Assembly: GCA_024281995.1 (NCBI GenBank)
Contig: JAMWZW010000009.1
Coordinates: forward strand, 1-64,000
Direction: 5' to 3'
DNA from: Nitrosomonas sp.
Lineage (GTDB): Bacteria; Pseudomonadota; Gammaproteobacteria; Burkholderiales; Nitrosomonadaceae
Length of the DNA stretch: 64,000 nucleotides
Each line of letters opens with the position of its first letter. Positions within the stretch are counted from its first letter, which is position 1. The notes under the pieces are model-generated. The model worked only from the letters and a program-made list of their open reading frames with translations. It was not told where the DNA came from and did not search any database. A program made the translations under genes and the position numbers. Shown here one piece after another: positions 37,267 through 50,747 of this stretch.

Positions 37267-37445
37267 GTGACCTCCGGTAGTTTGGCTCATATTTCATACA
37301 TCTTGCAAAATAAGTATTACAAACCGGTTGAGTGCAAAGGATACGTTAAGATCCATTACTTATTTTATGCACTGGTAATGATTACCTGCCAGTCAGCAGT
37401 CGGTCGCTCGATTTGATTATTTACTTTTAGAGGATGGGCAGCTTC

Positions 37446-38801
37446 ATGAGAAAAAGCAATCGCAGCTTTTTGCAGACAAAAAATCAATACGAAATACTTT
37501 CTATCACTGATGTTTCATTCCATACACGCAGTATCAAAGAATACCCTTTTCATACACTCATTAAATTTCTGCTCATTACGCTACTAAGCGCTTTTTTCCT
37601 CACGGCACCCCAAATTCATGCCTACGATCTATCGGTCAAACCGATATCCGACAGGCTCAAGGTAAAATCCAGCGAAACGCGCTGGCTGAGTTTAGGTGCA
37701 GGTTATCGTGGCACTGGATTATGGACCGAGAATCTCAATGGAAACCTCAATGGCGGTCACTACAGTAACGATAATGCCCGTTTGTATTTGAATGGTCAGA
37801 TTAACGAATACCTCAAATTTGAAGTCAATACTGAATGTTTCTTCTGTAACAATACCGCAGCTGGCGAAAATCCCAGAATGTCTTACAACATTCTCGATGC
37901 CATCGCTAAATTTGAATATAACCGCTACTTCAATGTCTGGGGCGGCCGTATGCTGGCCCCAACAGAGCGGGGGGAATTAAGCGGCCCCTTTTTTCAAGCA
38001 ACGCATGATGCGTTTAAAACCCCTTTCTTTTCACAAGATTTCAGCACAAAATTTGGTAATGGTGGTGCGGGTCGTTATGGCCGTGACGATGGCGTGACTT
38101 TTTGGGGCAGCGCTGAGCCGAAGTTTGTACCAGGAACTTTAGGGTATGCGATGGGGGTCTTTCGTGGCGTGGAGTCTACTCATATCTCCGGGCCTAATCC
38201 AAGCGGCACGATTTTGACAGCCGCACGGGTGACATACAATTTTCTGAATCCAGAAAAAAACCCCGGCTATTACACATCCAGCACATATTATGGCAAAGCG
38301 GGAGATATCTTAGCACTGGCATTCGGTATGTCGTATCAAAAGAATGGGGCGGGATCATTCGCACATCGCAGCGATTTTCTAGGTTTTGTTGGTGATTTGT
38401 TATTTGAGAAAGTATTGCCAAACAATATGGGTGTCGTTACTACCAATGCTGAGTACAAACAATTCTACGCCAATTACTCTACGACCGCATTTAACGATAA
38501 GGACTGTTTCTGTATGTTCGACGGCAAGTCATGGACAGTGACGGGTCTTTATATGCTACCAACCAAAGTCGGTATTGGGCACTTCCAACCTTATGGCCGC
38601 TTTACCAGTGTGCAGCCGAATCACAGCAGCAACCGGGAAGAAATCGAGGCTGGATTAAATTATATTATCGATGGCTTTAATGCCCGTATTTCAGCCTATT
38701 ATCAACATGGCGATCTGCTTATGAAAGGGTTGAACTATGCACCCAACGTAACAGGACAAGCGCTTGATGTATTTAAGATTTCTTTCCAATTGCAAATTTA
38801 A
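37446..38801 (+). CDS. Outer membrane porin preceding the urease operon
   Basis: 451 residues from ATG 37446. A long cytoplasmic N segment precedes the hydrophobic signal core LIKFLLITLLSAFFLTAPQIHA (split near residue 50), then a beta-barrel: GAGYRGTGLWTENLNGN, NGQINEYLKFEVNTECFFCN, GGRMLAPTERGELSGPFFQ, and a C-terminal strand ending FQLQI. Two CxxC/CxC pairs (ECFFC and DCFCM) are unusual in porins. The stop is 45 bases before ureD on the same strand, so it is probably the first gene of the urease operon. A role in outer membrane urea entry is inferred from position only. Confidence 0.65.
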   Translation: MRKSNRSFLQTKNQYEILSITDVSFHTRSIKEYPFHTLIKFLLITLLSAFFLTAPQIHAYDLSVKPISDRLKVKSSETRWLSLGAGYRGTGLWTENLNGNLNGGHYSNDNARLYLNGQINEYLKFEVNTECFFCNNTAAGENPRMSYNILDAIAKFEYNRYFNVWGGRMLAPTERGELSGPFFQATHDAFKTPFFSQDFSTKFGNGGAGRYGRDDGVTFWGSAEPKFVPGTLGYAMGVFRGVESTHISGPNPSGTILTAARVTYNFLNPEKNPGYYTSSTYYGKAGDILALAFGMSYQKNGAGSFAHRSDFLGFVGDLLFEKVLPNNMGVVTTNAEYKQFYANYSTTAFNDKDCFCMFDGKSWTVTGLYMLPTKVGIGHFQPYGRFTSVQPNHSSNREEIEAGLNYIIDGFNARISAYYQHGDLLMKGLNYAPNVTGQALDVFKISFQLQI

Positions 38802-38846: not shown

Positions 38847-39791
38847 ATGCTTTTATCCACTTTCTCAGAAGAATCTGCCATTAAACAAGAGGGTTCGGCT
38901 ATTCCGAATTATCGCAAGTCATCAACCGACGGTTTATCTGAATCGCCAGTCAATTCGAACCATAAACCATTACAGGCCAAGCTAGCCCTCAAATTTGCTG
39001 AAATTGATGGCACCACTCGTCTGGTAGCACGCGATCACTTTGGCCCGCTATTGGTGCAAAAACCATTGTATCCGGAAGGACGTCAAGTCTGTCATGTGGT
39101 TATCATTCACCCTCCGGGTGGAGTTGTTGGAGGGGATCAATTAGAAATCGCGGCGCATGTCGATACTGCGGCGCAAGTACAGATTACTACACCGGGTGCG
39201 GCAAAATGGTACAAATCCAATGGCCATACATCCCAGCAAAAAATTAGAATTAATGTTGAAAAAAATGCATCTCTAGAATGGGTGCCGCAAGAAACTATCT
39301 TTTACAACAATGCCAATGTAACCATCGATCATCAGGTAACACTTGACGGTGATGCAAACTATATCGGCTGTGAAATACTCTGTTTTGGCCGCACTGCATG
39401 GGGTGAAACATTCAATAACGGTCAAATCAAACAGCGAACCAGCATCAAACGGAATGGCAAATTGATTTGGCTTGAACAGATACGGCTGCGAGGTGAAAGT
39501 CATACCATGAACGGCCCGCTCGCTCTGAACGGCAATACAGTCTGTGCTACGCTCACCATCACGGGAAAAACAATACCTCAACCGCTGATTGACATGGCGC
39601 GGAACCGGACTCATGAAATTACCAAGGGTATGGGTCAGGTTGGTATTTCTCAACTGAAGGCAATTACCGTTGCGCGATATTTGGGTAATTCGAGTGAAGT
39701 AGCACGGCACATCATGCTGGCTGTGTGGGGCTTGCTTCGACCGGAACTTCTTCAGCGTAATGCAATTGTTCCAAGAATGTGGAATACATGA
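38847..39791 (+). CDS. ureD: Urease accessory protein UreD
   Basis: 314 residues; the conserved part starts at about residue 44 (QAKLALKFAEIDGTTRLV, GPLLVQKPLYPEG, HPPGGVVGGDQLEI, TTPGAAKWYKS). The ATG at 38847 leaves a 40-residue leader unlike other UreD proteins and has no good ribosome site, so a later start is possible. UreD binds the apo-urease trimer and, with UreF and UreG, forms the nickel-insertion complex. First urease gene here, 91 bases before ureA. Confidence 0.92.
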   Translation: MLLSTFSEESAIKQEGSAIPNYRKSSTDGLSESPVNSNHKPLQAKLALKFAEIDGTTRLVARDHFGPLLVQKPLYPEGRQVCHVVIIHPPGGVVGGDQLEIAAHVDTAAQVQITTPGAAKWYKSNGHTSQQKIRINVEKNASLEWVPQETIFYNNANVTIDHQVTLDGDANYIGCEILCFGRTAWGETFNNGQIKQRTSIKRNGKLIWLEQIRLRGESHTMNGPLALNGNTVCATLTITGKTIPQPLIDMARNRTHEITKGMGQVGISQLKAITVARYLGNSSEVARHIMLAVWGLLRPELLQRNAIVPRMWNT

Positions 39792-39882
39792 TGAACACAA
39801 CTTAATATCTTTTTTTAATTAATCTTCAATACCTTAACAACTTTTTTAAATTGTAAATGTTATTTTACCCAGGAGAAAAGCT

Positions 39883-40185
39883 ATGGACTTAACACCTAGA
39901 GAGAAAGACAAATTGCAAATCTTTACTGCAGGATTACTTGCCGAAAGACGCAAAGCACGCGGTCTGCGACTTAATTATCCAGAAGCTGTTGCAATGATAA
40001 CTTGCGCAGTACTAGAAGGTGCCAGAGACGGCCGGACAGTCGCAGAATTGATGACTGCTGGTCAAAGGGTACTCACTCGCGCTGATGTCATGGAAGGCGT
40101 TCCTGAGATGATTCCGGATATTCAGGTCGAAGCAACATTTCCAGACGGAACCAAATTGGTTACTGTGCATAACCCGATAGTATAA
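39883..40185 (+). CDS. ureA: Urease gamma subunit
   Basis: 100 residues, full length: [71 protein letters not shown] precedes the ATG. The smallest structural subunit of three-chain bacterial urease (UreABC)3. 24 bases before ureB. Confidence 0.98.
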
Positions 40186-40209
40186 ATTTACAAAAAATAG
40201 GAGATCACC

Positions 40210-40530
40210 ATGAGAGTACCGATGATTCCCGGAGAGGTATTTACTGAACCCGGTGAGATAGAGCTAAATGTTGGCCGAAAAACCAAGACTCTGACTGTTT
40301 CCAATGGAGGAGATCGTCCCATTCAAATAGGTTCTCACTTTCATTTCTACGAAGTAAATTCTGCCATGAAGTTCGATCGTGAAGCCGCCTATGGCATGCG
40401 CCTGAATATTATGGCAGGCACTGCTGTCCGCTTTGAACCTGGGCAAGAGCGGACTGTTGAACTCGTCGATCTTGCGGGAGACCGTATCGTTTACGGATTT
40501 AATCAAAAAGTGATGGGCAAACTGAAATAG
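40210..40530 (+). CDS. ureB: Urease beta subunit
   Basis: 106 residues, full length: [73 protein letters not shown] precedes the ATG. Structural subunit bridging UreA and UreC. 33 bases before ureC. Confidence 0.98.
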
Positions 40531-40563
40531 TTTGTTTCGCAACAATTTTACAGGAGTAAAAAA

Positions 40564-42270
40564 ATGAGCGTAAAAATTTCCCGTCAAACCTATGCAGAAA
40601 TGATGGGCCCAACGACCGGCGATCGTGTTCGTTTAGCTGATACAGAACTTTTTATTGAAATTGAGAAAGACTTCACCACATATGGTGAAGAAGTGAAATT
40701 TGGTGGCGGCAAGGTTATTCGGGACGGCATGGGGCAATCACAACGCAATCATGCAGATGTCATGGATACTGTCATTACCAATGCTGTCCTCATTGACCAT
40801 TGGGGGATTGTCAAAGCAGATATTGGCATCAAGAATGGCAAAATTGCCGGTATTGGCAAAGCAGGAAACCCGGATATTCAGTCGAATATAACCATGGCAA
40901 TCGGTTCAGCCACTGAAATTATTGCGGGCGAAAACTTGATTGTTACGGCGGGAGGCGTTGATACCCATATTCACTTTATTTCACCTCAACAAGCTGAAGA
41001 CGCCATGATGAATGGCATTACTACCATGCTGGGTGGCGGTACTGGCCCTGCGGTAGGAACTGCAGCAACAACCTGTACACCCGGTCCTTGGCATATTCAT
41101 TCGATGCTCAGAGCTTCTGACGGATTAGTAATGAATACCGGCTTCTTTGGTAAAGGCAATACCAGTCTGCCTACCCCGCTTGAAGAACAAGTATCGGCAG
41201 GTGCCTGTGGGCTGAAACTGCATGAGGATTGGGGAACAACCTATGCTGCTATCGACAATTGTCTGAATGTTGCGGATAAATATGATGTGCAGGTTGCGAT
41301 TCATACGGATACCATCAACGAAGGTGGCTATCTGGAAAACACTATCGCTGCGATGAAAGACCGCACCATTCATACTTTCCACACCGAGGGCGCAGGCGGG
41401 GGTCATGCGCCGGATATTATCGCCGTCGTGGGTTTGGATAACGTATTGCCATCATCTACCAATCCCACCCGTCCCTACACCGTCAATACGCTCGATGAAC
41501 ATCTGGATATGTTGATGGTGTGTCATCATTTGCATGCCAATATCGCTGAGGATCTTGCTTTTGCAGAATCACGTATCCGCAAGGAAACAATTGCCGCCGA
41601 AGATATTTTGCATGACATGGGCGCCATTTCAATGATGTCGTCCGACTCGCAAGCAATGGGCCGGATCGGCGAGGTGGTATTACGTACCTGGCAAACTGCG
41701 CATAAAATGAAAGTACAGCGCGGTACTTTACAGGAAGATAATTCAAGGAACGACAATTTCCGAGTTAAACGTTACGTTGCCAAATACACGATTAATCCCG
41801 CCATTACTCATGGCATCGCTCATGCGATCGGATCAATTGAAGTAGGCAAATACGCGGATCTAGTGTTATGGAGACCGGCATTTTTCGGTGTTAAGCCCTC
41901 GATGATTCTCAAAGGTGGAATGATCGCTGCTTCATTGATGGGTGATCCCAATGCTTCCATTCCCACACCGCAGCCGGTGCATTACCGTTACATGTTTGGT
42001 GGATACGGAGGCGGAATCAAAACATCGTGCTTTACCTTTGCATCGCAAGCTGCATTAGGTGCGGGACTGGTCGATCAACTGAAACTCGACAAGAACCTGA
42101 TTGAAGTTAAAAATACCCGTAACCTGCGTAAGAAAGACATGATTCATAATAGTGCCACGCCAAAAATGGAAGTGGATCCGGAAACTTATGAAGTGCGCGC
42201 GGATGGCCAGCTTCTCACCTGCGGCGCCGAAGATGTGTTACCTATGGCGCAGCGGTACTTCTTGTTTTAG
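40564..42270 (+). CDS. ureC: Urease alpha (catalytic) subunit
   Basis: 568 residues. Nickel ligands and active site are all present: VDTHIHF (His135 and His137), GLKLHEDWG (carbamylated Lys218, His220), [25 protein letters not shown] (catalytic flap His321-322) and SSDSQAMGR (Asp). Hydrolyses urea to ammonia and carbamate with two Ni2+ ions in the cytoplasm. In an ammonia oxidiser the product feeds ammonia monooxygenase, and the CO2 can feed carbon fixation. CAGGAG precedes the ATG. A strong hairpin follows the stop by 40 bases. Confidence 0.98.
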
Positions 42271-42309
42271 GAGAAAACGCTGTAAGGGTATGCTTTATAT
42301 TTAACAGGA

Positions 42310-42340
42310 GGGTATTGCCGCGATTATCGCGGCAATACCC
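42310..42340. terminator. Perfect 14-bp hairpin between ureC and ureE
   Basis: GGGTATTGCCGCGA, loop TTA, then the exact complement TCGCGGCAATACCC. No T run follows (CTTCCAATAG), so it is not a classic intrinsic terminator. It could be an RNA-processing or 3'-stabilising element that raises ureABC over ureEFG, or a leaky terminator. Confidence 0.7.
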
Positions 42341-42375
42341 TTCCAATAGCTTTGATTATTCATAAAAACAATAAA

Positions 42376-42909
42376 ATGCTTACACTCAATACTAAAGTGG
42401 ATCAAGCAGAAACGATTTATGCGCAGCTCGTTCTGCCCTATGAAATGCGCGAAAACAGCAGATTGAGAACATCCCTTGCATCGGGCGAGGAAGTTGCCAT
42501 CTTTACTGCACGCGGCACCGTGCTCCGTCACAACGATTTGCTTAAAAGCGATGATGGCCATGTCGTTCAAATCATCGCTGCCAAGGAGCCCACGTACAAA
42601 GTAATCTGCCACTCACCCCATGATTTGTTGCGATGCGCTTTTCATTTAGGCAATCGCCACACGCAAACGCAAGTAGGAGAAGGTTTTTTACGTATCCACC
42701 AGGATGCTGTGTTAAAACAAATGCTGGAAGGCCTAGGTGCCACAATTATTGAAGAGGAAGCGCAATTTGAACCGGAATCAGGCGCTTATAGCGGGGGCGG
42801 ACACCATCATCATCATGGCGACGGTCATTATCATGCGCACGGCCCGTTGGCGCCCATCCCTACCCGGCAGCGAATTCACCGTCCGTCAGACATCGAAACA
42901 AAGGAATAG
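42376..42909 (+). CDS. ureE: Urease accessory nickel metallochaperone UreE
   Basis: 177 residues from ATG 42376 (MLTLNTKVDQAETIYAQ); the frame opens 24 bases earlier. N-terminal peptide-binding domain with LPYEMRENSRLRTSLASGEEV, C-terminal metal-binding domain with HLGNRHTQTQVGEG, and a His-rich tail GGHHHHHGDGHYHAHG for Ni2+ storage or delivery. No strong ribosome site, so translation may rely on the upstream message. The stop is 3 bases before the ureF start. Confidence 0.93.
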   Translation: MLTLNTKVDQAETIYAQLVLPYEMRENSRLRTSLASGEEVAIFTARGTVLRHNDLLKSDDGHVVQIIAAKEPTYKVICHSPHDLLRCAFHLGNRHTQTQVGEGFLRIHQDAVLKQMLEGLGATIIEEEAQFEPESGAYSGGGHHHHHGDGHYHAHGPLAPIPTRQRIHRPSDIETKE

Positions 42910-42912
42910 ACC

Positions 42913-43590
42913 TTGCAATCCGCCTTATTACTTCGCTTATTGCAATTAGCCAGTCCATCATTGCCGATCGGTGCATATACCTATTCCCAAGGCTTGGAAT
43001 CCGCTATTGAACTAGGCAGCGTTAACAATGAAAGCTCAGCAAAAACATGGATTACCGAATCGTTAAACATCGTTGCCGATTTTGAAGCGCCCATCGTATG
43101 GCGCCTGCTCAAGGCATTTGCCGCACGCGATGCTGAAGCCGTGAGTTACTGGAATGAATGCTTTATTGCAGCGCGCGATACCGCAGAATTCCGTGCCGAA
43201 ACAATACAAATGGGGTATTCATTAGCGAAACTCGTCATGGATCTCAAGGTGGCCGATGAATCATTGCGCACGATTCTTGCGAACCAATCCGAAATACCCT
43301 TGCCCACCGCTTTTGCCTGTGCGGCAGAAGCACTGGCTGTACCGCATGAAGCGGCGCTGCTGGGCATGCTGTTTTCGATGATCGAGAATCAAGTGCTGGT
43401 ATGCGTCAAATCGGTTCCACTGGGACAAGTTTCAGGACAAAACCTTCTGCTTTCTTTGCATTCCGCCATCGAGCATGCTGCGCAACATGCTCAACAGCTC
43501 GATGACGATGAATTATCCAATTGGGCGCCTGGACTATCATTACTGTCGATGCAGCATGAAATACAATATAGCAGAGTATATCGATCATAA
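42913..43590 (+). CDS. ureF: Urease accessory protein UreF
   Basis: 225 residues from a TTG start at 42913, immediately after ureE. Helical protein with LLQLASPSLPIGAYTYSQGLE, WNECFIAARDTAEFRAETIQMG and VPLGQVSGQNLLLSLHSAIEHA, all UreF signatures. It modulates UreG GTPase and gates nickel insertion with UreD. Separated from ureG by 18 bases. Confidence 0.95.
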   Translation: MQSALLLRLLQLASPSLPIGAYTYSQGLESAIELGSVNNESSAKTWITESLNIVADFEAPIVWRLLKAFAARDAEAVSYWNECFIAARDTAEFRAETIQMGYSLAKLVMDLKVADESLRTILANQSEIPLPTAFACAAEALAVPHEAALLGMLFSMIENQVLVCVKSVPLGQVSGQNLLLSLHSAIEHAAQHAQQLDDDELSNWAPGLSLLSMQHEIQYSRVYRS

Positions 43591-43608
43591 TTTAGTGGAA
43601 ATAATAAC

Positions 43609-44244
43609 GTGAACAGACAATCAAACCCTCTTAGAGTCGGTATCGGCGGTCCGGTCGGTTCCGGAAAAACAGCCTTATGCGAAGCATTGAGCAAAAAAAT
43701 GCGCGACCATTACGAAATGGCTGTGATCACAAATGATATCTATACCAAGGAAGACATGGAGATCTTGTTGCGCGCTAATGCGTTGCCTCCGGAACGCCTG
43801 ATGGGTGTGGAGACAGGCGGATGCCCGCATACCGCCATTAGAGAAGATGCTTCCATCAACCTCGAAGCGATTGCGCGCATGACGGCAGATTTTCCTAATC
43901 TCGACCTGATTCTGATCGAATCGGGTGGCGACAATTTGGCCTCCACATTCAGCCCTGAGCTCTCCGATCTGACAATTTATGTCATTGACGTCGCTGCAGG
44001 CGAAAAAATACCACGTAAAGGCGGCCCCGGCATCACTCGCTCAGCATTGCTTGTCATCAATAAAACGGATCTGGCTCCGCACGTCGGCGCAAGCTTGGAA
44101 GTCATGGCACGGGATGCAAAAAGAATGCGCGGAGACCGGCCCTTTGTATTCACCAACTTGCATACCGGAGAAGGCGTCGACCAAGTTGTCGATTTCATTG
44201 TAAAACAAGGGCTACTGGATGAAGTGAAGCAACGGGTAAGTTAA
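43609..44244 (+). CDS. ureG: Urease accessory GTPase UreG
   Basis: 211 residues from GTG 43609. GTPase motifs: P-loop [26 protein letters not shown], the metal site [15 protein letters not shown] (Cys-Pro-His), [15 protein letters not shown] and the NKTDLAP specificity motif. Provides GTP-dependent nickel delivery. Last accessory gene, 113 bases before the urea transporter. Confidence 0.97.
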
Positions 44245-44357
44245 GAAGCGCTGCGGTACATTTGAATAACCCGCCTTCATCTCAAAAGTGAAGCATAATA
44301 TCTATAAGTTACTGTAATTGTTATTACTTTTATCACAAACTTTAGGAGTTCGTCACC

Positions 44358-45335
44358 ATGGACTGGTCTTTATCGATTGACAAAGCTATACCAAGACCTC
44401 TGCGTGTTATCTTCAGAGGCGTAGGACAAGTTTTTTTCTGTTGCAATGCCGTTACCGGCCTTATTTTCCTAATCGCTTTGTACGTTGGCGGAATTACGGC
44501 AGGCCTGGCCGCCACGGTGGGTGTAATCAGCAGCACGGTAGCAGCCTACTTGCTGGGATTCTCCGAAGATGATATCGACGCTGGTTTATATGGATTCAAC
44601 GGCACCCTGGTAGGACCCTGTCTATTTCTATTTCTGGAAAATACACCGCAGTTGTGGTTGTATGTCGTACTCGCTTCGATCTTGTCCACTGTCGTTTTAG
44701 CGGCGTTAATGCGAATTTTGCAACCCTATAACATTCCCGCTTCTACTTCGCCATTTGTGTTGGCGTGCTGGATGTTCATGGTTGCCGTCTATTCTTTTGA
44801 TGGATTCTCCCGTGGCCCGGTATTACCCGCCCCGGCAATTCCCGCTGACATTGCGACCGCATCCGTGGTCACGACAGAGTTTGCAAGCTTATCGCAAGAG
44901 GCAATTGAAGCTTGGTATACCGCAATAACTAAAGGCGTTGGTGAAGTCATGTTTGCCGATAGCGTCATTGTCGGGATTTTATTTCTTGTAGGCATAGCCA
45001 TCACCTCGCTGCGCGGCGCGCTCATGGCACTGGCAGGCGCAATCGTCGGCGTTGTCATCCCTATTTGCCTTGGTGCGGATAAGACGCTGATTGAAATGGG
45101 ATTGTACGGATTCAATCCGGTATTGACTATGATGGCGGTGGGCTGGGTGTTTCTGAGACCAACTACGGGCACTGCAATCCTTGCACTACTTGCGGGTATA
45201 CTGACGGTTATTTGCCAAGCTGGCTTGGCTAATTTTCTTGCACCGATTGGACTGCCAACACTGACATTTCCATTTGTATTGACTATGTGGATGTTCCTGT
45301 TTGCAGCCAGTAAATCCAAATACTGGGCAAGCTGA
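44358..45335 (+). CDS. Urea transporter (UT family)
   Basis: 325 residues, very hydrophobic, with about ten transmembrane helices in two homologous halves. Each half has the urea-channel motif: YGFNGTLVGPCLFLFLE in the first and YGFNPVLTMMAVGWVF in the second. This is the UT/Yut-type passive urea channel, not an ABC system. TAGGAG precedes the ATG. Placed to bring urea across the inner membrane to urease. Ends the forward operon, with a terminator at 45362. Confidence 0.9.
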   Translation: MDWSLSIDKAIPRPLRVIFRGVGQVFFCCNAVTGLIFLIALYVGGITAGLAATVGVISSTVAAYLLGFSEDDIDAGLYGFNGTLVGPCLFLFLENTPQLWLYVVLASILSTVVLAALMRILQPYNIPASTSPFVLACWMFMVAVYSFDGFSRGPVLPAPAIPADIATASVVTTEFASLSQEAIEAWYTAITKGVGEVMFADSVIVGILFLVGIAITSLRGALMALAGAIVGVVIPICLGADKTLIEMGLYGFNPVLTMMAVGWVFLRPTTGTAILALLAGILTVICQAGLANFLAPIGLPTLTFPFVLTMWMFLFAASKSKYWAS

Positions 45336-45408: not shown

Positions 45409-45876
45409 TCAAGTCAACGGCTTGCTATGAATATGCGAACTGCTTGAGTGCGTGTGATTGTGATTGCTTTGCGCCAGCTCAATCGGCACGATATGCAATT
45501 TGCCATGCCGCACACCATTCGTAGCAATAATTTGGTTGGCGAAACGCCTGACATCCTCAATAATGCCTCGAAGAATCACCACTTCCAGGCAATTCTCATG
45601 ATCCATATGCACATGCATACTCGACAGGGTTAAATCATGATGATGATGATGCGCAGATGTGACCTGACTGGCTAAATCCCTTTCATGGTGGTTATAAATA
45701 TAACTCAATGTAGCGATACAGTAGCCTTTGTTGTCTTTTTGCATGCGCGCCGTTTCAAGATATTCGCGCACAAGATCCCGAATTGCTTCTGAGCGATTGT
45801 CATAACCACGCGCATGGGAAAGTTTGTCGAACTGTTCAAAAAGCTGCTCATCCATCGAAATCGTAAAGCGCTCCAT
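45409..45876 (-). CDS. nikR: Nickel-responsive regulator NikR
   Basis: 155 residues. Ribbon-helix-helix DNA-binding domain at the N terminus (MERFTISMDEQLFEQFDKL, NRSEAIRDLVREYL) and ACT-like metal-binding domain with MHVHMDHENCLEVVIL, where His88, His90 and Cys96 plus His77 in an HHHHHDL run match the square-planar Ni site (E. coli His76, 87, 89, Cys95). A 15-residue C-terminal tail HNHTHSSSSHIHS is an uncommon His-rich addition. Represses nickel uptake genes when Ni is replete. A good operator match lies 2.2 kb away (48110). Confidence 0.95.
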   Translation of the reverse strand: MERFTISMDEQLFEQFDKLSHARGYDNRSEAIRDLVREYLETARMQKDNKGYCIATLSYIYNHHERDLASQVTSAHHHHHDLTLSSMHVHMDHENCLEVVILRGIIEDVRRFANQIIATNGVRHGKLHIVPIELAQSNHNHTHSSSSHIHSKPLT

Positions 45877-45964: not shown

Positions 45965-48043
45965 CTAAAAATTGGCCACCAAATTAACCCGTAGTGAACG
46001 GCTCTCAATCGGATGGAAGTGCACATCATTCAGACCGGCGGCAGGCTCGCCCGGGAGCCTTGAAGTATAGTAGTAATCGATGGCGTGAGCATGTGTATTA
46101 AGCAAATTAAATCCTTGCAGGATCACACGTACATTATTGCCGATTTTATAACCGATCTGTCCATTCAATGTTACGGTGTGATCGGATTGCACGCTGTTAT
46201 CTTCGATCAATGGGCGCTTGCCGAAATAACGAAGCTGCATGCTGCCGAATAAAGGACCAATGTTGTCGACGGAAACTGCCAGCTTGCCTACCCCTCTGAT
46301 TGCTCCCGGTATGTGATGGCCACTGGGATCGACGTCACTAAAACGCGCACGCGCCAACGCATAATCGACATCGATCGTTAACCAGTCCGTCGGCATATAA
46401 AACAGCGAAGCCTCAAATCCTTCCCGCCTGCTCGGGCGGCTTGCTTCGGTTGTTCCGGCATCTCCCACAAACAACAATTCTGAATCCAAATCCAACCGGA
46501 ATGCTGCAAAGGAAGCCTGTAAACCTGGAATGATGGCAGTACGAAATCCAACCTCATAACCCGTCGAGCGCACCAGCGGATGAACCCGGTTGATAACCTC
46601 CCCCGATTTAGGATCAACGGTTGAAGTCGTTCCGCGTGCATCATTGCTATGAAACCCGCTGCCATAGTTGAAATAAAATTCCGTTTGCGCCCAAGGACCA
46701 AAAATCAGACCCAATTTAGGATTCGTCATGCTGTCATAGCGATTGCCTGAATTCGTGCTGAGATTGCTGTTCACATCAAACCAATAATAATCCGAACGCA
46801 CCCCCGCCACACTGCGGAATTTCTCAAACCATTGGATGCTGTTGTGATAAAAAATTCCTATGCTATTTTGGTTAATATGATCCTTACGCGTGATTGACAA
46901 AGTCTGACGTTCTTTGGTACTGAGCAATCCATTGTCGATCACGTCGTTTTGAAACTGAACACCTACTGTATTTTCCACCTCCAATCCGGCAATCTTATTG
47001 ATCCACATATGGCTGACATTCATCGCCGATTGAAAGCGTTTATCGCGTTGCGAAAACTGATCTCCGTTGAAGGGGTCATCCAGAAAATAGGTAAAATTTG
47101 AAAACAGCGCGAGATTGCTATGTAAAGTATAGAGATTAAAATCGGTCACACCAAAGCGGCCGGCGTGCCGCAATGCGGTGGATAAACTGAAACGGTGCGA
47201 CTCGCCCCCGCTGCTCGGATCGATTGTCCCAAGCCGGGGAACAATACCGCCGGCTACGCCGCGGGCCGGAATCTGATCGGTGGAATTCCAATTTCCGCCA
47301 TAACCCATTGCCGTCACATTGAATTTGGTCGTTCCCGTATCTTGGCTATAGCGCAACACCGTGTTGAATTTCTTGAAATCTTCATGCTTGATCCACGGAC
47401 CGTCTTTAGTAAGCAACTCAACCGCATACAAAACATTGCCTTGCCCAACTTCGTGCGACTTGGCCACCAATCCACGCATAAAGCCCTGCTCGCCTAAGCC
47501 ATAACTGGCTATACCTTTGGGTAGCTTATCGACATAACTCATAGTAACGGCGCCAGCCGATGAAAAATCGCCCTGGCTGGCATGGTAAGGACCTTTCAGA
47601 TACTGCAAATTCCCCATTAATTCCGGGATGATAAAATTAGTATCCGCCCAACCTTGGCCATGACCGTGCGAACGCTGGTTGACTAACATGCCATCGACGG
47701 TAATGCGCAAATCGGTGCCATGATCGAGATTGAAACCACGCAAAAAATATTGATTGGCCTTTCCTTCGCCGCTATGCTGCGTCACAATCAGTCCCGGTAC
47801 TGTTTCAAGCAACTCTCCGGGACGATAAACCGTACGTAAATCAAGTTGATGCTTCAATACCGTACCTTCCGTAGCGGAATTCGCACTGCCGATCAATTCC
47901 CGCGCATTGCCGCGCACGATCATTTCCTTCAAGGTCGGAATGCCAGCCGCAATAACCATGCATGGCATAGATGACAGAAGAAAAAAAATGCTGCTTAAGA
48001 CTTTCAACACCGCTGCCACAGGCTGCTTCATTATATTTCGCAC
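45965..48043 (-). CDS. TonB-dependent outer membrane receptor, predicted nickel uptake
   Basis: 692 residues from GTG 48043 (GGGGAG 8 bases upstream); ATG 48031 is an alternative. Signal peptide (ends MVIAA), plug domain with ETVPGLIVTQHSGEGKANQYFLRGF and HGTDLRITVDGM, then a 22-strand barrel ending in Phe. A His/Gly-rich loop NQRSHGHGQGWADTNFI in the plug could contact metal. Lies between nikR and a divergent metal ABC importer, with a NikR-type operator in its 5' region. Nickel (or nickel-chelate) as substrate is inferred from this context. Confidence 0.8.
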   Translation of the reverse strand: MRNIMKQPVAAVLKVLSSIFFLLSSMPCMVIAAGIPTLKEMIVRGNARELIGSANSATEGTVLKHQLDLRTVYRPGELLETVPGLIVTQHSGEGKANQYFLRGFNLDHGTDLRITVDGMLVNQRSHGHGQGWADTNFIIPELMGNLQYLKGPYHASQGDFSSAGAVTMSYVDKLPKGIASYGLGEQGFMRGLVAKSHEVGQGNVLYAVELLTKDGPWIKHEDFKKFNTVLRYSQDTGTTKFNVTAMGYGGNWNSTDQIPARGVAGGIVPRLGTIDPSSGGESHRFSLSTALRHAGRFGVTDFNLYTLHSNLALFSNFTYFLDDPFNGDQFSQRDKRFQSAMNVSHMWINKIAGLEVENTVGVQFQNDVIDNGLLSTKERQTLSITRKDHINQNSIGIFYHNSIQWFEKFRSVAGVRSDYYWFDVNSNLSTNSGNRYDSMTNPKLGLIFGPWAQTEFYFNYGSGFHSNDARGTTSTVDPKSGEVINRVHPLVRSTGYEVGFRTAIIPGLQASFAAFRLDLDSELLFVGDAGTTEASRPSRREGFEASLFYMPTDWLTIDVDYALARARFSDVDPSGHHIPGAIRGVGKLAVSVDNIGPLFGSMQLRYFGKRPLIEDNSVQSDHTVTLNGQIGYKIGNNVRVILQGFNLLNTHAHAIDYYYTSRLPGEPAAGLNDVHFHPIESRSLRVNLVANF

Positions 48044-48071
48044 GTATTTTCTCCCCAGAATTACGTATTTT

Positions 48072-48088
48072 CCTACAATTCGTGTAGG
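48072..48088. promoter_or_regulatory. Small palindrome in the TonB-receptor leader
   Basis: CCTACA-ATTCG-TGTAGG, perfect 6-bp arms, 29 bases upstream of the receptor start. Could be an RNA hairpin or a second protein site. Weak evidence. Confidence 0.3.
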
Positions 48089-48109
48089 ATTTTTATTTTA
48101 ACTTAAAAA

Positions 48110-48138
48110 TGTATGATAAATTATTTTTTTTTCATACA
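48110..48138. promoter_or_regulatory. NikR-type operator
   Basis: TGTATGA and TCATACA separated by a 15-base AT-rich spacer. The known E. coli NikR operator is GTATGA-N16-TCATAC, so the half sites match exactly and the spacer is one base shorter. It lies 27 bases upstream of the ABC importer's ATG and 66 bases upstream of the receptor's start, placed to control both divergent units. Confidence 0.7.
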
Positions 48139-48164
48139 CTGTTATTTTTTTCCAAGGAGCTCTT

Positions 48165-49136
48165 ATGAAGAACAAAGCAGTTAGCAGTATCAGGGATCTA
48201 TGCTTAGGCGCGTTATTACTTTTTCTTCATACTCAAGTAGTTGCGCAAGGAACACAAGAAAGACCCAAAGTCATCACTACCGTTTCACCCATTACTAATA
48301 TTGTGCAAAATATTGGCGGAACGCACGTTCAAGTCATAGGTATCGTTCCAGATGGCACTGACTCTCATACCTTTGAACCGCTACCTTCCGATATCAAGAT
48401 AATACAGGCGGCCGACTTGATTATTGCCAATGGTCTCGATTTGGAATTACCCACGATGAACTTAGCTAAAAAAGTAAAAAAACCGCAAACCGCCATTCTG
48501 CAATTGGGAAACAACGTACTGAACGAAGAAGATTGGCAGTATGATTTCAGTTTTCCGCGCGAGCTAGGACATCCCAATCCGCATTTATGGCTTAATATCG
48601 AATTGGTTATGGGTTACACGGACATCATCAGAGATAATCTGATTGCATTAGATCCATCCAATAAAACGACTTATCAGACCAATGCGGCAATCTATCGCGA
48701 CAAATTAAAAAAATTGGATCGGGCAATTTTTAAATGTGTTGAGACAATTCCGGAAAAAAACCGTAAACTGGTTACCTATCATGATTCTTTTGCCTACTTC
48801 GCGCCCCGTTACGGCATGACAGTCATCGCAGCCGTCCAGCCTTCCAATTTTTCCGAACCGGGTCCCCAGGAAGTCATTCATATCATCAAGCAAATCAATC
48901 ATACCGGTGTGCCGGCAATCTTTGGCTCCGAAGTTTTTCCCAGCAAAGTAATGGAACAAATTGCTCGCGAGGCCAAAGTCAAATTTGTTGACCAGTTGTC
49001 CGACGACGAATTGCCGCCCCCCCCCAATAATTCTTTCATCGGTATGATGGCAAGCAATCTGACGATCATGACCGAAGCGCTTGGCGGTGATGCAACATGT
49101 ATGGCAGGTATTGATGCAAGCAATAACACCTTCTGA
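48165..49136 (+). CDS. Metal ABC transporter, substrate-binding protein
   Basis: 323 residues of the cluster 9 (ZnuA/TroA) family, AGGAG 5 bases before ATG 48165. Signal peptide ends VVAQ (about residue 28). Metal-site regions: DGTDSHTFEPLPSDI, NPHLWLNIE, HDSFAYFAPRYGM, FGSEVFPSKVM. The long His-rich loop of typical ZnuA is absent. Family members import Zn, Mn or Fe; the NikR operator just upstream and the urease/NikR neighbours suggest nickel here. Overlaps the ATPase gene by 23 bases. Confidence 0.82.
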   Translation: MKNKAVSSIRDLCLGALLLFLHTQVVAQGTQERPKVITTVSPITNIVQNIGGTHVQVIGIVPDGTDSHTFEPLPSDIKIIQAADLIIANGLDLELPTMNLAKKVKKPQTAILQLGNNVLNEEDWQYDFSFPRELGHPNPHLWLNIELVMGYTDIIRDNLIALDPSNKTTYQTNAAIYRDKLKKLDRAIFKCVETIPEKNRKLVTYHDSFAYFAPRYGMTVIAAVQPSNFSEPGPQEVIHIIKQINHTGVPAIFGSEVFPSKVMEQIAREAKVKFVDQLSDDELPPPPNNSFIGMMASNLTIMTEALGGDATCMAGIDASNNTF

Positions 49137-49932
49137 TGCGCAATCACATGCGGCGATCAAATTAACCGGCGTTACGGCGGGTTATGGCAAACATATCGTT
49201 TTCCGCGATCTTTCATTGGAGATTGCTAGCGGCCAATTTATCGGCATTGTAGGGCCTACTGCCTGCGGTAAAACCACATTACTCAAAATCATTTTAGGGG
49301 TTCAGCCGGCGATCACGGGAACCGTGCGTTTACACAATCACTGCGTCGGTTCAGCTAAACCAGGCACGGTTGGTTACGTGCCGCAGCTCGGAAGCGTTGA
49401 CTGGACCTTTCCGGTCACTGTTGAAGAAGTCATCATGATGGGATTGTATACCAACGGACGGTATTGGCCATGGCTCAGTAAAACGGAAAAAATAAGTATT
49501 CATGCAATGGCTGACCGGTTAGGCGTATACGACTGTTTGCATCAACATATCGTCAACATTTCGGGAGGTCAGCGGCAACGGACATTTCTAGCGCGCGCAT
49601 TGATCAATCGTCCTAAATTGCTGATATTGGATGAACCCACCTCCGGAGTCGATATTAAGACCCAGCATGAAGTGCTGCACTTACTCGGAGATATCAACCG
49701 TGAAGGCATCACCATATTGTTGACTACGCATGACCTCAACGCAGTAGCTTCCCATTTACCGTGGGTTATTTGCTTTAATCGCGGCATGATAGCTCAAGGC
49801 CGTCCCAACGATATTTTCACCAATGAAATATTGACACAAACCTATGGCGGAGACATTGTCATCGTTAAACACGAAGGCCATCTATTGATTGCCAACAGCA
49901 CGCCGCTGAATTTTATGGATGATACCAAATAA
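49114..49932 (+). CDS. Metal ABC transporter, ATPase
   Basis: 272 residues from ATG 49114; the frame opens at a TTG 33 bases earlier. Walker A reads GPTACGKTT (usual GPNGAGKST, so a variant), signature NISGGQRQRTFLARAL, Walker B LLILDEPTSGVD, switch His TTHDLNAV. Energises the importer. Overlaps both neighbours (23 bases into the binding protein gene; its stop shares A with the permease ATG), so translationally coupled. Confidence 0.9.
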   Translation: MQAITPSDAQSHAAIKLTGVTAGYGKHIVFRDLSLEIASGQFIGIVGPTACGKTTLLKIILGVQPAITGTVRLHNHCVGSAKPGTVGYVPQLGSVDWTFPVTVEEVIMMGLYTNGRYWPWLSKTEKISIHAMADRLGVYDCLHQHIVNISGGQRQRTFLARALINRPKLLILDEPTSGVDIKTQHEVLHLLGDINREGITILLTTHDLNAVASHLPWVICFNRGMIAQGRPNDIFTNEILTQTYGGDIVIVKHEGHLLIANSTPLNFMDDTK

Positions 49933-50747
49933 TGGAATTTCTTCTCGAACCGTTCGCGTATGATTTCTTCATGCGCGGCCTGCTGGCAGCAGTGATGGTT
50001 GGAGCCTTATGCGGTGCCGTTGGGGTATACGTGGTTTTACGCGGCATGAGTTATGTCGGCCACGGTTTATCTCATGCCGCCATTGGCGGAGCGATTATAG
50101 GAATCACTTTTAACCTGGATTTCTATGCAGGCGCTCTGATCATGGGTCTGCTTGCTGCACTAGCCATCAATCAGATCACAAAAAACAGCCACATCAAACT
50201 GGATGCCGCCATTGGGATTGTCACCACGGCGATTTTTGCTTTGGGTGTTGCTATTGTCAGTAAGTTACGAAATTTCAAGCAAAACTTTGAAGCCGCATTA
50301 TTTGGCAATATTCTAGGAATTACCGACCAGGACTTGATGATGATTGCAGGGGTAACTGTCATCACACTGATCACGATGTTTTTTTGCTATCGCACACTGC
50401 TGTTTTCCACATTCGATCACGAAGCCGCGCGCATTTTTGGCGTCAAAACAAATACGGTGGAATTTCTGTTTTCACTCTTACTGACACTATCGGTGATTGT
50501 TTCGCTCAATGTTGTCGGTGTTACTATGGTTGCCGCCACGCTGATAGCACCGGCGATAACGGCAAGAATGTTGACGGATAGCTTCAGCCGCATGATCGTG
50601 CTTGCGATCCTTTTCGGTTCAGTAACCGGGATTGTGGGCATGTATTTAAGTTACATTTTTAATGTTGCTTCAGGTACCACAATCGTATTATTCAGCACCT
50701 TAGTATTTAGTTTAACGCTCATGGCGCATTTACTGCGCCGGCAATAA
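49932..50747 (+). CDS. Metal ABC transporter, permease
   Basis: 271 residues, about eight transmembrane helices, ABC-3 family: FFMRGLLAAVMVGALCGAVGVYVVLRGM, YVGHGLSHAAIGGAIIG, NVVGVTMVAATLIAPAITARML, SGTTIVLFSTLVFSL. Partner of the preceding ATPase and binding protein. Ends the three-gene unit. Confidence 0.9.
   Translation: MEFLLEPFAYDFFMRGLLAAVMVGALCGAVGVYVVLRGMSYVGHGLSHAAIGGAIIGITFNLDFYAGALIMGLLAALAINQITKNSHIKLDAAIGIVTTAIFALGVAIVSKLRNFKQNFEAALFGNILGITDQDLMMIAGVTVITLITMFFCYRTLLFSTFDHEAARIFGVKTNTVEFLFSLLLTLSVIVSLNVVGVTMVAATLIAPAITARMLTDSFSRMIVLAILFGSVTGIVGMYLSYIFNVASGTTIVLFSTLVFSLTLMAHLLRRQ

Follow-up and report, generated by a model that had tools for sequence, protein, structure and literature searches.

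In a genome of Nitrosomonas sp., a palindrome lies between a gene for a TonB-dependent outer-membrane receptor, which is followed by the gene for the nickel sensor NikR, and the genes of an ABC importer with a ZnuA-type binding protein. The question that this locus raises is whether NikR controls both transcription units through the palindrome and whether the importer carries nickel. We analyzed the 64,000 nucleotides around it (the window; contig JAMWZW010000009.1, positions 1 to 64,000) together with the 21-contig genome (2,882,584 bases, 2.88 Mb), 61 genomes of the genus, and relatives of the importer in other phyla. From sequence comparison, we think it very likely that the palindrome is a NikR operator that switches a receptor-nikR unit and a cluster 9 nickel importer unit.

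The genes of the locus and the predicted operator

The nikR gene (45409-45876, reverse strand) encodes a protein of 155 aa with ribbon-helix-helix and NikR_C domains (PF01402/PF08753) that matches PDB chain 1q5v_A, which we take to be E. coli NikR, with 142 bits; the list of matching entries includes 2hzv. The protein scores above the cut-off of three NCBIfam NikR models, for example PRK02967 with 199.9 bits (cut-off 83), and under the cut-offs of TIGR02793 (163.6 versus 175.45) and PRK00630. Aligned to 1q5v_A, it retains R3 and T5, presumably the DNA-contact residues, and an HVH...C motif that we take to be the nickel site. An extra His-rich C-terminal tail extends past the end of the 1q5v_A match, and NikR also has a His-bearing tail in L198, L204, L206, and L223.

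The receptor gene, with Pfam plug and beta-barrel domains, is at 45965-48043 on the reverse strand, its start being listed as the GTG at 48043, and an ATG at 48031 is possible too. nikR is located 88 bp behind the receptor gene on the same strand, and its start is 2.23 kb from the palindrome, in agreement with the 2.2 kb given in a preliminary description of this DNA. On the forward strand are the genes for a periplasmic metal-binding protein of cluster 9 (ZnuA/TroA family; 48165-49136, PF01297), an ABC ATPase (49081-49932, with a true start that is probably somewhat 3' of 49081), and an ABC-3 family permease (49932-50747), the last two assigned with Pfam and NCBIfam. A PF01297 binding protein together with an ATPase and an ABC-3 permease makes this a cluster 9 importer, and Pfam confirmed all four gene products that had led the preliminary description to place the site between a TonB receptor and a ZnuA-type ABC importer.

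The urease genes and a urea transporter (38847-45335) adjoin nikR, all on the forward strand: ureD at 38847-39791 (PF01774), ureA, ureB, and ureC with the accessory genes ureE, ureF, and ureG at 39883-44244 (Pfam urease gamma, beta, and alpha, UreE, UreF, and CobW/HypB/UreG), and a UT family urea transporter at 44358-45335 (Pfam/NCBIfam). Urease is presumed to be the nickel consumer of the locus. On the 5' side of ureD there is a putative outer-membrane protein (37434-38801) without a Pfam match, which is 74% identical to the protein in the same place in L098 and which many relatives have in the vicinity of urease or the importer.

The predicted operator, TGTATGATAAATTATTTTTTTTTCATACA, is an exact TGTATGA-N15-TCATACA palindrome at 48110-48138, between the two divergent transcription units, just where and as the preliminary description had given it. 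In a pattern search of the window and the genome it is the sole match without mismatches, and among the genome matches listed there is one other site at one mismatch, inside a gene with an ABC_tran domain. An excerpt of PMC545781 gives the published enterobacterial NikR signal as GTATGAT-N13/14-ATCATAC, 27-28 bp long. The window site, a 27-bp form with half-sites GTATGA and TCATAC, falls within this signal, although its second arm, TTCATAC, differs by one letter from the published 7-base arm ATCATAC. The half-sites are therefore like those of the characterised NikR operator, as had been claimed, with a spacer of N15 versus the N16 of E. coli (excerpt of PMC7055735).

Loose patterns with three mismatches were discarded as evidence, with counts in the window at chance level for both N15 (5 observed versus 3.6 expected) and N16 (30 versus 25.6); to the 176 three-mismatch matches in the genome, versus 92 for the pattern read backwards, we give no weight. 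Given these counts, the case rests on the exact palindrome and its conservation.

The stretch that separates the palindrome from the receptor gene contains a further inverted repeat, TCCTACA-N5-TGTAGGA at 48071-48089, with T-rich sequence after it. Its arms are conserved in four of ten loci compared (the window locus and the three relatives closest to it), where the loop takes three different forms, and it is possibly a stem-loop in the receptor-nikR leader.

Conservation of the palindrome and pairing with urease

From the 61-genome sample of the genus, which includes the window genome, we took the 30 genomes in which nikR and the receptor (whole or in pieces) adjoin the binding protein and searched a stretch starting about 400 bp 5' of the binding protein gene and ending 60 bp inside it. 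The N15 palindrome is present with at most one mismatch in 28/30 and exact in 17/30; the two misses are G051 and G053. With the ten spacers of 10-14 and 16-20 there was no exact site, and at one mismatch N13 alone matched (2/30). The 28 sites have 19 distinct spacers, and the ATAAA that follows the left arm, part of the spacer, is conserved among the genus sites.

A second set consisted of 42 loci, 25 from the genus (18 of these from genomes that are also in the first set) and 17 from the sister genus g3, with 450 bp searched in each; one sister-genus locus (L138) was excluded because less than 100 bp upstream was present. The N15 palindrome is exact in 26 of these loci and has at most one mismatch in 31 (22/25 in the genus and 9/17 in the sister genus), compared to an expectation of 0.09 of 42 from letter shuffles, and these loci share descent, so the counts are not counts of independent events. 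When the spacer was varied from 8 to 24, no length besides N15 matched except N16 (1 exact, 2 at one mismatch or fewer). nikR is present in all eight sister-genus stretches without the N15 form at this threshold, of which five have a form with two mismatches and one has an exact N16 form. In several sister-genus loci the gap contains at least two such palindromes. Across the two genera the arms are kept while the spacers change, with a single preferred spacing, and the site thus passes the check that the preliminary description had proposed, conservation upstream of orthologous loci.

Urease alpha is found in 39/61 genomes of the genus and the binding protein in exactly the same 39, with 60-100% identity across them; in this count UreC is a fragment only in G002 and G005, and the G022 binding protein is in two pieces with stops. 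None of the 22 urease-less genomes has the binding protein. At E <= 0.001 no relative of it was detected in 21 of the 22, and the 29% relative in the other, G021, was kept out of the 39. Given that no relative was detected in those 21 genomes, the importer is not the general zinc or manganese importer of the genus.

nikR is present in 35 of the 39 urease genomes and in none of the 22 others. A receptor of at least 72% identity is found in 32 of the 35 nikR genomes and also in G011, which has the receptor without nikR, urease, or the importer. In the remaining nikR genomes (G028, G029, G049) the receptors are mosaic, with 36-48% identity in the longest matches. In G028, nikR and one part of the receptor are 1.2 Mb apart from the importer and the other receptor parts (C1:1235353-1237406 and C1:2473056-2475626), which looks like the result of a rearrangement that split the locus within the receptor gene. 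Urease does not always adjoin the importer, and is on a separate contig in genomes such as G024 and G039.

The preliminary description had stated that the importer is not one of the usual nickel transporters. This stands for NiCoT (NicO) and CbiM, which have no match in any of the 61 genomes, and for HupE/UreJ, which has none in the window genome. In the genus as a whole, HupE/UreJ is found in 26/61 genomes, 15/39 with urease and 11/22 without. In eight Nitrosomonas genomes a HupE/UreJ match is beside a TonB-receptor match that is 45-51% identical to the window receptor, with equal open-frame lengths of 769-960 aa (G040:C24:31324-33891; G010:C102:115-2700; G045:C1:2143578-2146148; G031:C31:47534-50107; G034:C7:2337-4913; G055:C25:4637-7267; G015:C68:585-3164; G028:C1:1661402-1663465). 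Reading these as one frame from position and equal length, they are apparent fusions of an inner-membrane permease with an outer-membrane receptor.

A second clade of Nitrosomonas has a different arrangement. In nine of the 61 genomes (G002, G004, G006, G010, G026, G035, G037, G046, G055) the three importer genes are located directly after ureE; five of the nine have nikR, and four have the importer and urease without a detectable nikR. Upstream of the importer, the palindrome was not found within two mismatches in any of 17 loci (16 with the ureE-importer order and L134, from genus g4, with ureE after ureC instead). Before the receptor, the palindrome is exact in G055, has one mismatch in G026 and two in G006 and G046, and was not found in G035; between the outer-membrane protein gene and ureD-ureABC it is exact in G006 and has one mismatch in G026 and G035. 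G004 has an exact palindrome 1.25 kb before ureA, though no nikR was detected in this assembly, which is 75% complete. In G010 and G037, which are without nikR, there is no palindrome within one mismatch in the stretches examined. In part of this clade NikR may control urease too. N15 palindromes with 0-1 mismatch ahead of the urease genes of this clade are at L096:13255, L097:6574, L098:6565, and L158:432.

The binding protein and its relatives beyond the family

The first three metal-ligand positions of the binding protein, H68, H140, and H206, are conserved in 60/60 aligned sequences. The fourth position is Pro or Ser where, in alignments, MntC and a PsaA-type protein have acidic residues that we take to be their metal ligands. 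With His as the third ligand and Pro/Ser at the fourth place, the predicted site lacks both acidic ligands of the Mn/Fe type, which argues against that ligand set and does not choose between zinc and nickel. A three-His site resembles that of the zinc members of cluster 9.

The structure model has a pLDDT of 86, with residues 121-140 near H140 only at about 55. The predicted fold is that of a standard cluster 9 protein with a Liberibacter metal-binding protein, YfeA, and MntC as the best PDB matches, and together with the Pfam domains it confirms the earlier assignment to the Zn/Mn/Fe family. The best names among the NCBIfam models all score below their curated cut-offs (AztC 184.6 of 350, MntC 168.8 of 400, ZnuA 84.8 of 268), so that by these cut-offs the protein is placed neither with the AztABC/ZnuABC zinc importers nor with the MntABC manganese importers.

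The order, sampled with 399 genomes, has relatives at E <= 1e-60 in 10 of them, all from this family. From a scan of GTDB genomes, the best 80 of 237 relatives were retained and 39 of these 80 were examined; TYHDSFAY or G[HYN]PNPHLW was a selection criterion of the scan, and finding these stretches in far members is partly a consequence of that. nikR is located between the binding protein and the ATPase in all six Nitrospirota loci (L227, L229, L230, L234, L236, L237), and in L227 a gene for an OprB porin precedes the binding protein. In four of the six loci from Deltaproteobacteria/Binatia (L226, L228, L232, L235) nikR is upstream, and in the other two (L231, L233), whose stretches both begin close to the binding protein, no nikR was seen. 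Three of the four (L226, L228, L232) have a receptor homologue between nikR and the importer, which in L232 is 32% identical over 680 columns, and L226 and L228 also have a TonB protein in the locus. Among Gammaproteobacteria, tonB-exbB-exbD genes are found near the importer in L198, L204, L206, L207, and L238; in L206, by Pfam, the genes run tonB-exbB-exbD-receptor-nikR, and an exact palindrome separates them from the divergent binding protein gene. Outside the window, NikR proteins were scanned from three loci (L227, L226, L206), and all have NikR_C. In two of the Deltaproteobacteria, an MFS transporter gene is located between nikR and the TonB receptor (L226:5513-6820, L232:1528-2829) and could belong to a metal-chelate system.

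In 11 loci from far phyla there are no perfect palindromes with 7-base arms of the GTAT/GTGT type. We searched 12 far loci with the deltaproteobacterial NikR signal published in PMC545781, as it appears in an excerpt of that paper. Sites like GTGTTAC-N13-GTAACAC are located ahead of the operon in L229 (1 mismatch), L227 (2), and L236 (3), and the reversed form is ahead of nikR in L228 (2), L232 (2), and L226 (3). L235 has a 3-mismatch site just 5' of nikR, and L230 has a reversed 3-mismatch site between the binding protein and nikR. The 1-mismatch site of L234, at position 185, is not tied to the operon, and L231, L233, and L237 have no placeable site of this type. Shuffles give 7.5 matches at three mismatches or fewer in 195,663 bases for the reversed form with one spacer, so the 3-mismatch sites count by position alone, if at all, and further such matches elsewhere in the 12 loci were left out of account. 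Reversed half-sites at N24 are found in L227 (1 mismatch) and L229 (0), with one half-site shared with the palindromes named above.

For the 23 genomes at the far end of the list (L198, L204, L206, L219, and L221-L239, with L200 and L207 excluded), we checked for nickel enzymes. Urease alpha is above threshold in 16/23, with 12 full matches (186-195 bits), partial matches in G513 and G521, and weak ones of at most 30 bits in G517 and G524, which we read as other amidohydrolases. NiFe hydrogenase has a match in 16/23 genomes, 14 of them above the cut-off. Both ends are matched in ten (G511-G514, G516, G520, G522, G525, G532, G533), and the rest are mostly short pieces, presumably such as complex I subunits would give. 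Counting full or partial urease and two-ended hydrogenase, 16/23 genomes have a nickel enzyme. Of the seven that do not (G515, G517, G519, G523, G524, G526, G531), five are Deltaproteobacteria/Binatia, and these assemblies may be incomplete. The earlier suggestion that the route is dedicated to urease fits Nitrosomonas and is not general, given that for urease alpha and NiFe hydrogenase the matches found are at most weak and partial in five of the six Deltaproteobacteria/Binatia genomes checked.

Proposed mechanism, alternatives, and known systems

We propose that, with enough nickel in the cytoplasm, Ni-NikR would occupy the palindrome and turn off the divergent units on both sides of it, the TonB receptor with nikR on one side and the binding protein, ATPase, and permease on the other. 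Repression of both units is suggested by analogy with the E. coli nik operon, which Ni-NikR represses (excerpt of PMC7055735). With nikR behind the receptor gene, in a transcript that the two would share, NikR would also limit itself. When nickel is short, both units would be expressed; the receptor would bring nickel, or a chelate of it, through the outer membrane, in the periplasm it would be bound by the ZnuA-type protein, the ABC importer would deliver it to the cytoplasm, and UreE, UreF, and UreG would load it into urease. The nickel reading, already put forward in the preliminary description, gains independent support from the co-occurrence with urease (39/39 and 0/22), the order of ureE and the importer, and the position of nikR inside or ahead of importer loci in other phyla.

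An alternative is that this is an importer of zinc (or of manganese or iron) that neighbors nikR by chance, in which case the palindrome may serve another regulator. The Pfam assignment to ZnuA and the three-His site, as in zinc members, would agree with this, and AztC and MntC are the closest NCBIfam models, albeit all far below cut-off. However, the binding protein occurs in exactly the urease-positive genomes, with no relative detected in 21 of the 22 others, it follows ureE in another clade, nikR is inside the cluster in Nitrospirota, and the half-sites agree with the published NikR signal; we regard this explanation as quite improbable. It is also conceivable, though in our view unlikely, that NikR does control the locus and that the substrate is cobalt or a mixed Ni/Co/Zn chelate taken up with a metallophore, nickel being one cargo among others. 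TonB receptors usually take chelates, and both the MFS gene that in L226 and L232 separates nikR from the receptor and the eight Nitrosomonas genomes with HupE/UreJ and a related receptor in seemingly one frame would be in line with this. In Nitrosomonas, however, the importer is strictly paired with urease, and this and the gene order with ureE suggest that the main cargo is nickel.

The palindrome itself could be a chance occurrence, or a promoter or leader feature of an A+T-rich gap. It has a spacer made up entirely of A and T and a half-site, TATGAT, that is similar to a -10 box; loose patterns are about as frequent as expected by chance, and part of the spacer (ATAAA) is conserved among the genus sites. 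A pattern scan of the gap found no sigma-70-like promoter in 47950-48250, which is neutral toward this explanation. We give it hardly any credence, based on the retention of the arms with changing spacers across two genera (19 distinct spacers in 28 genus sites) and the one preferred spacing.

Returning to a NikR-controlled nickel importer, we think it likely that the importer represents an unnamed nickel ABC importer family within cluster 9, which with a TonB receptor, in some cases with its own TonB-ExbB-ExbD, would form a complete two-membrane module for nickel uptake under one NikR switch. The family would be recognizable from stretches that are almost invariant (DFSFP..GHPNPHxW, TYHDS, and FGSEVFPS) and from its linkage to nikR. 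Its range would include the Nitrosomonadaceae and other Gammaproteobacteria, the Deltaproteobacteria/Binatia, the Nitrospirota, where an OprB-type porin may replace the receptor, and possibly SAR202. Cluster 9 importers are generally taken to carry zinc, manganese, or iron, and here a whole subfamily seems to carry nickel. If this is true, annotations in ammonia oxidizers and Nitrospirota would be corrected, the nickel supply of urea-driven nitrification would be named, and there would be a testable signature for nickel members in an importer family where specificity is difficult to infer from sequence. We found no description of a NikR-controlled cluster 9 importer in the open-licence literature searched, and an earlier mention is possible.

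Among known systems, the locus is like E. coli NikR-nikABCDE in having NikR as the sensor, the half-sites GTATGA and TCATAC, and nikR near the importer it would control. In E. coli, however, the importer is of the Nik/Opp/Dpp family and the spacer is N16, whereas here the importer is of cluster 9 (ZnuA/ABC-3), the spacer is N15, and a TonB receptor is part of the regulated pair. With ZnuABC, MntABC, PsaA, YfeA, and AztABC the importer shares the fold and family of the binding protein and the families of the ATPase and permease, and differs in the predicted NikR control, the strict pairing with urease, the His at ligand 3, and the Pro/Ser at position 4. NikMNQO with deltaproteobacterial NikR sites, as described in an excerpt of PMC545781, is similar in that nikR is beside an importer other than NikABCDE, and some of the far relatives here carry that type of site, but NikMNQO is a CbiMNQO-like importer without a ZnuA-type binding protein. 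An excerpt of PMC11247825 lists FecA3, FrpB4, CntO, Bll6948, Daro_3944, Rgel01002199, and NikH as nickel TonB receptors, FecA3 and FrpB4 being under NikR control. By description these are like the receptor of our locus, which is predicted to import nickel, and they differ from it in that our receptor would have a cluster 9 importer as its inner-membrane partner.
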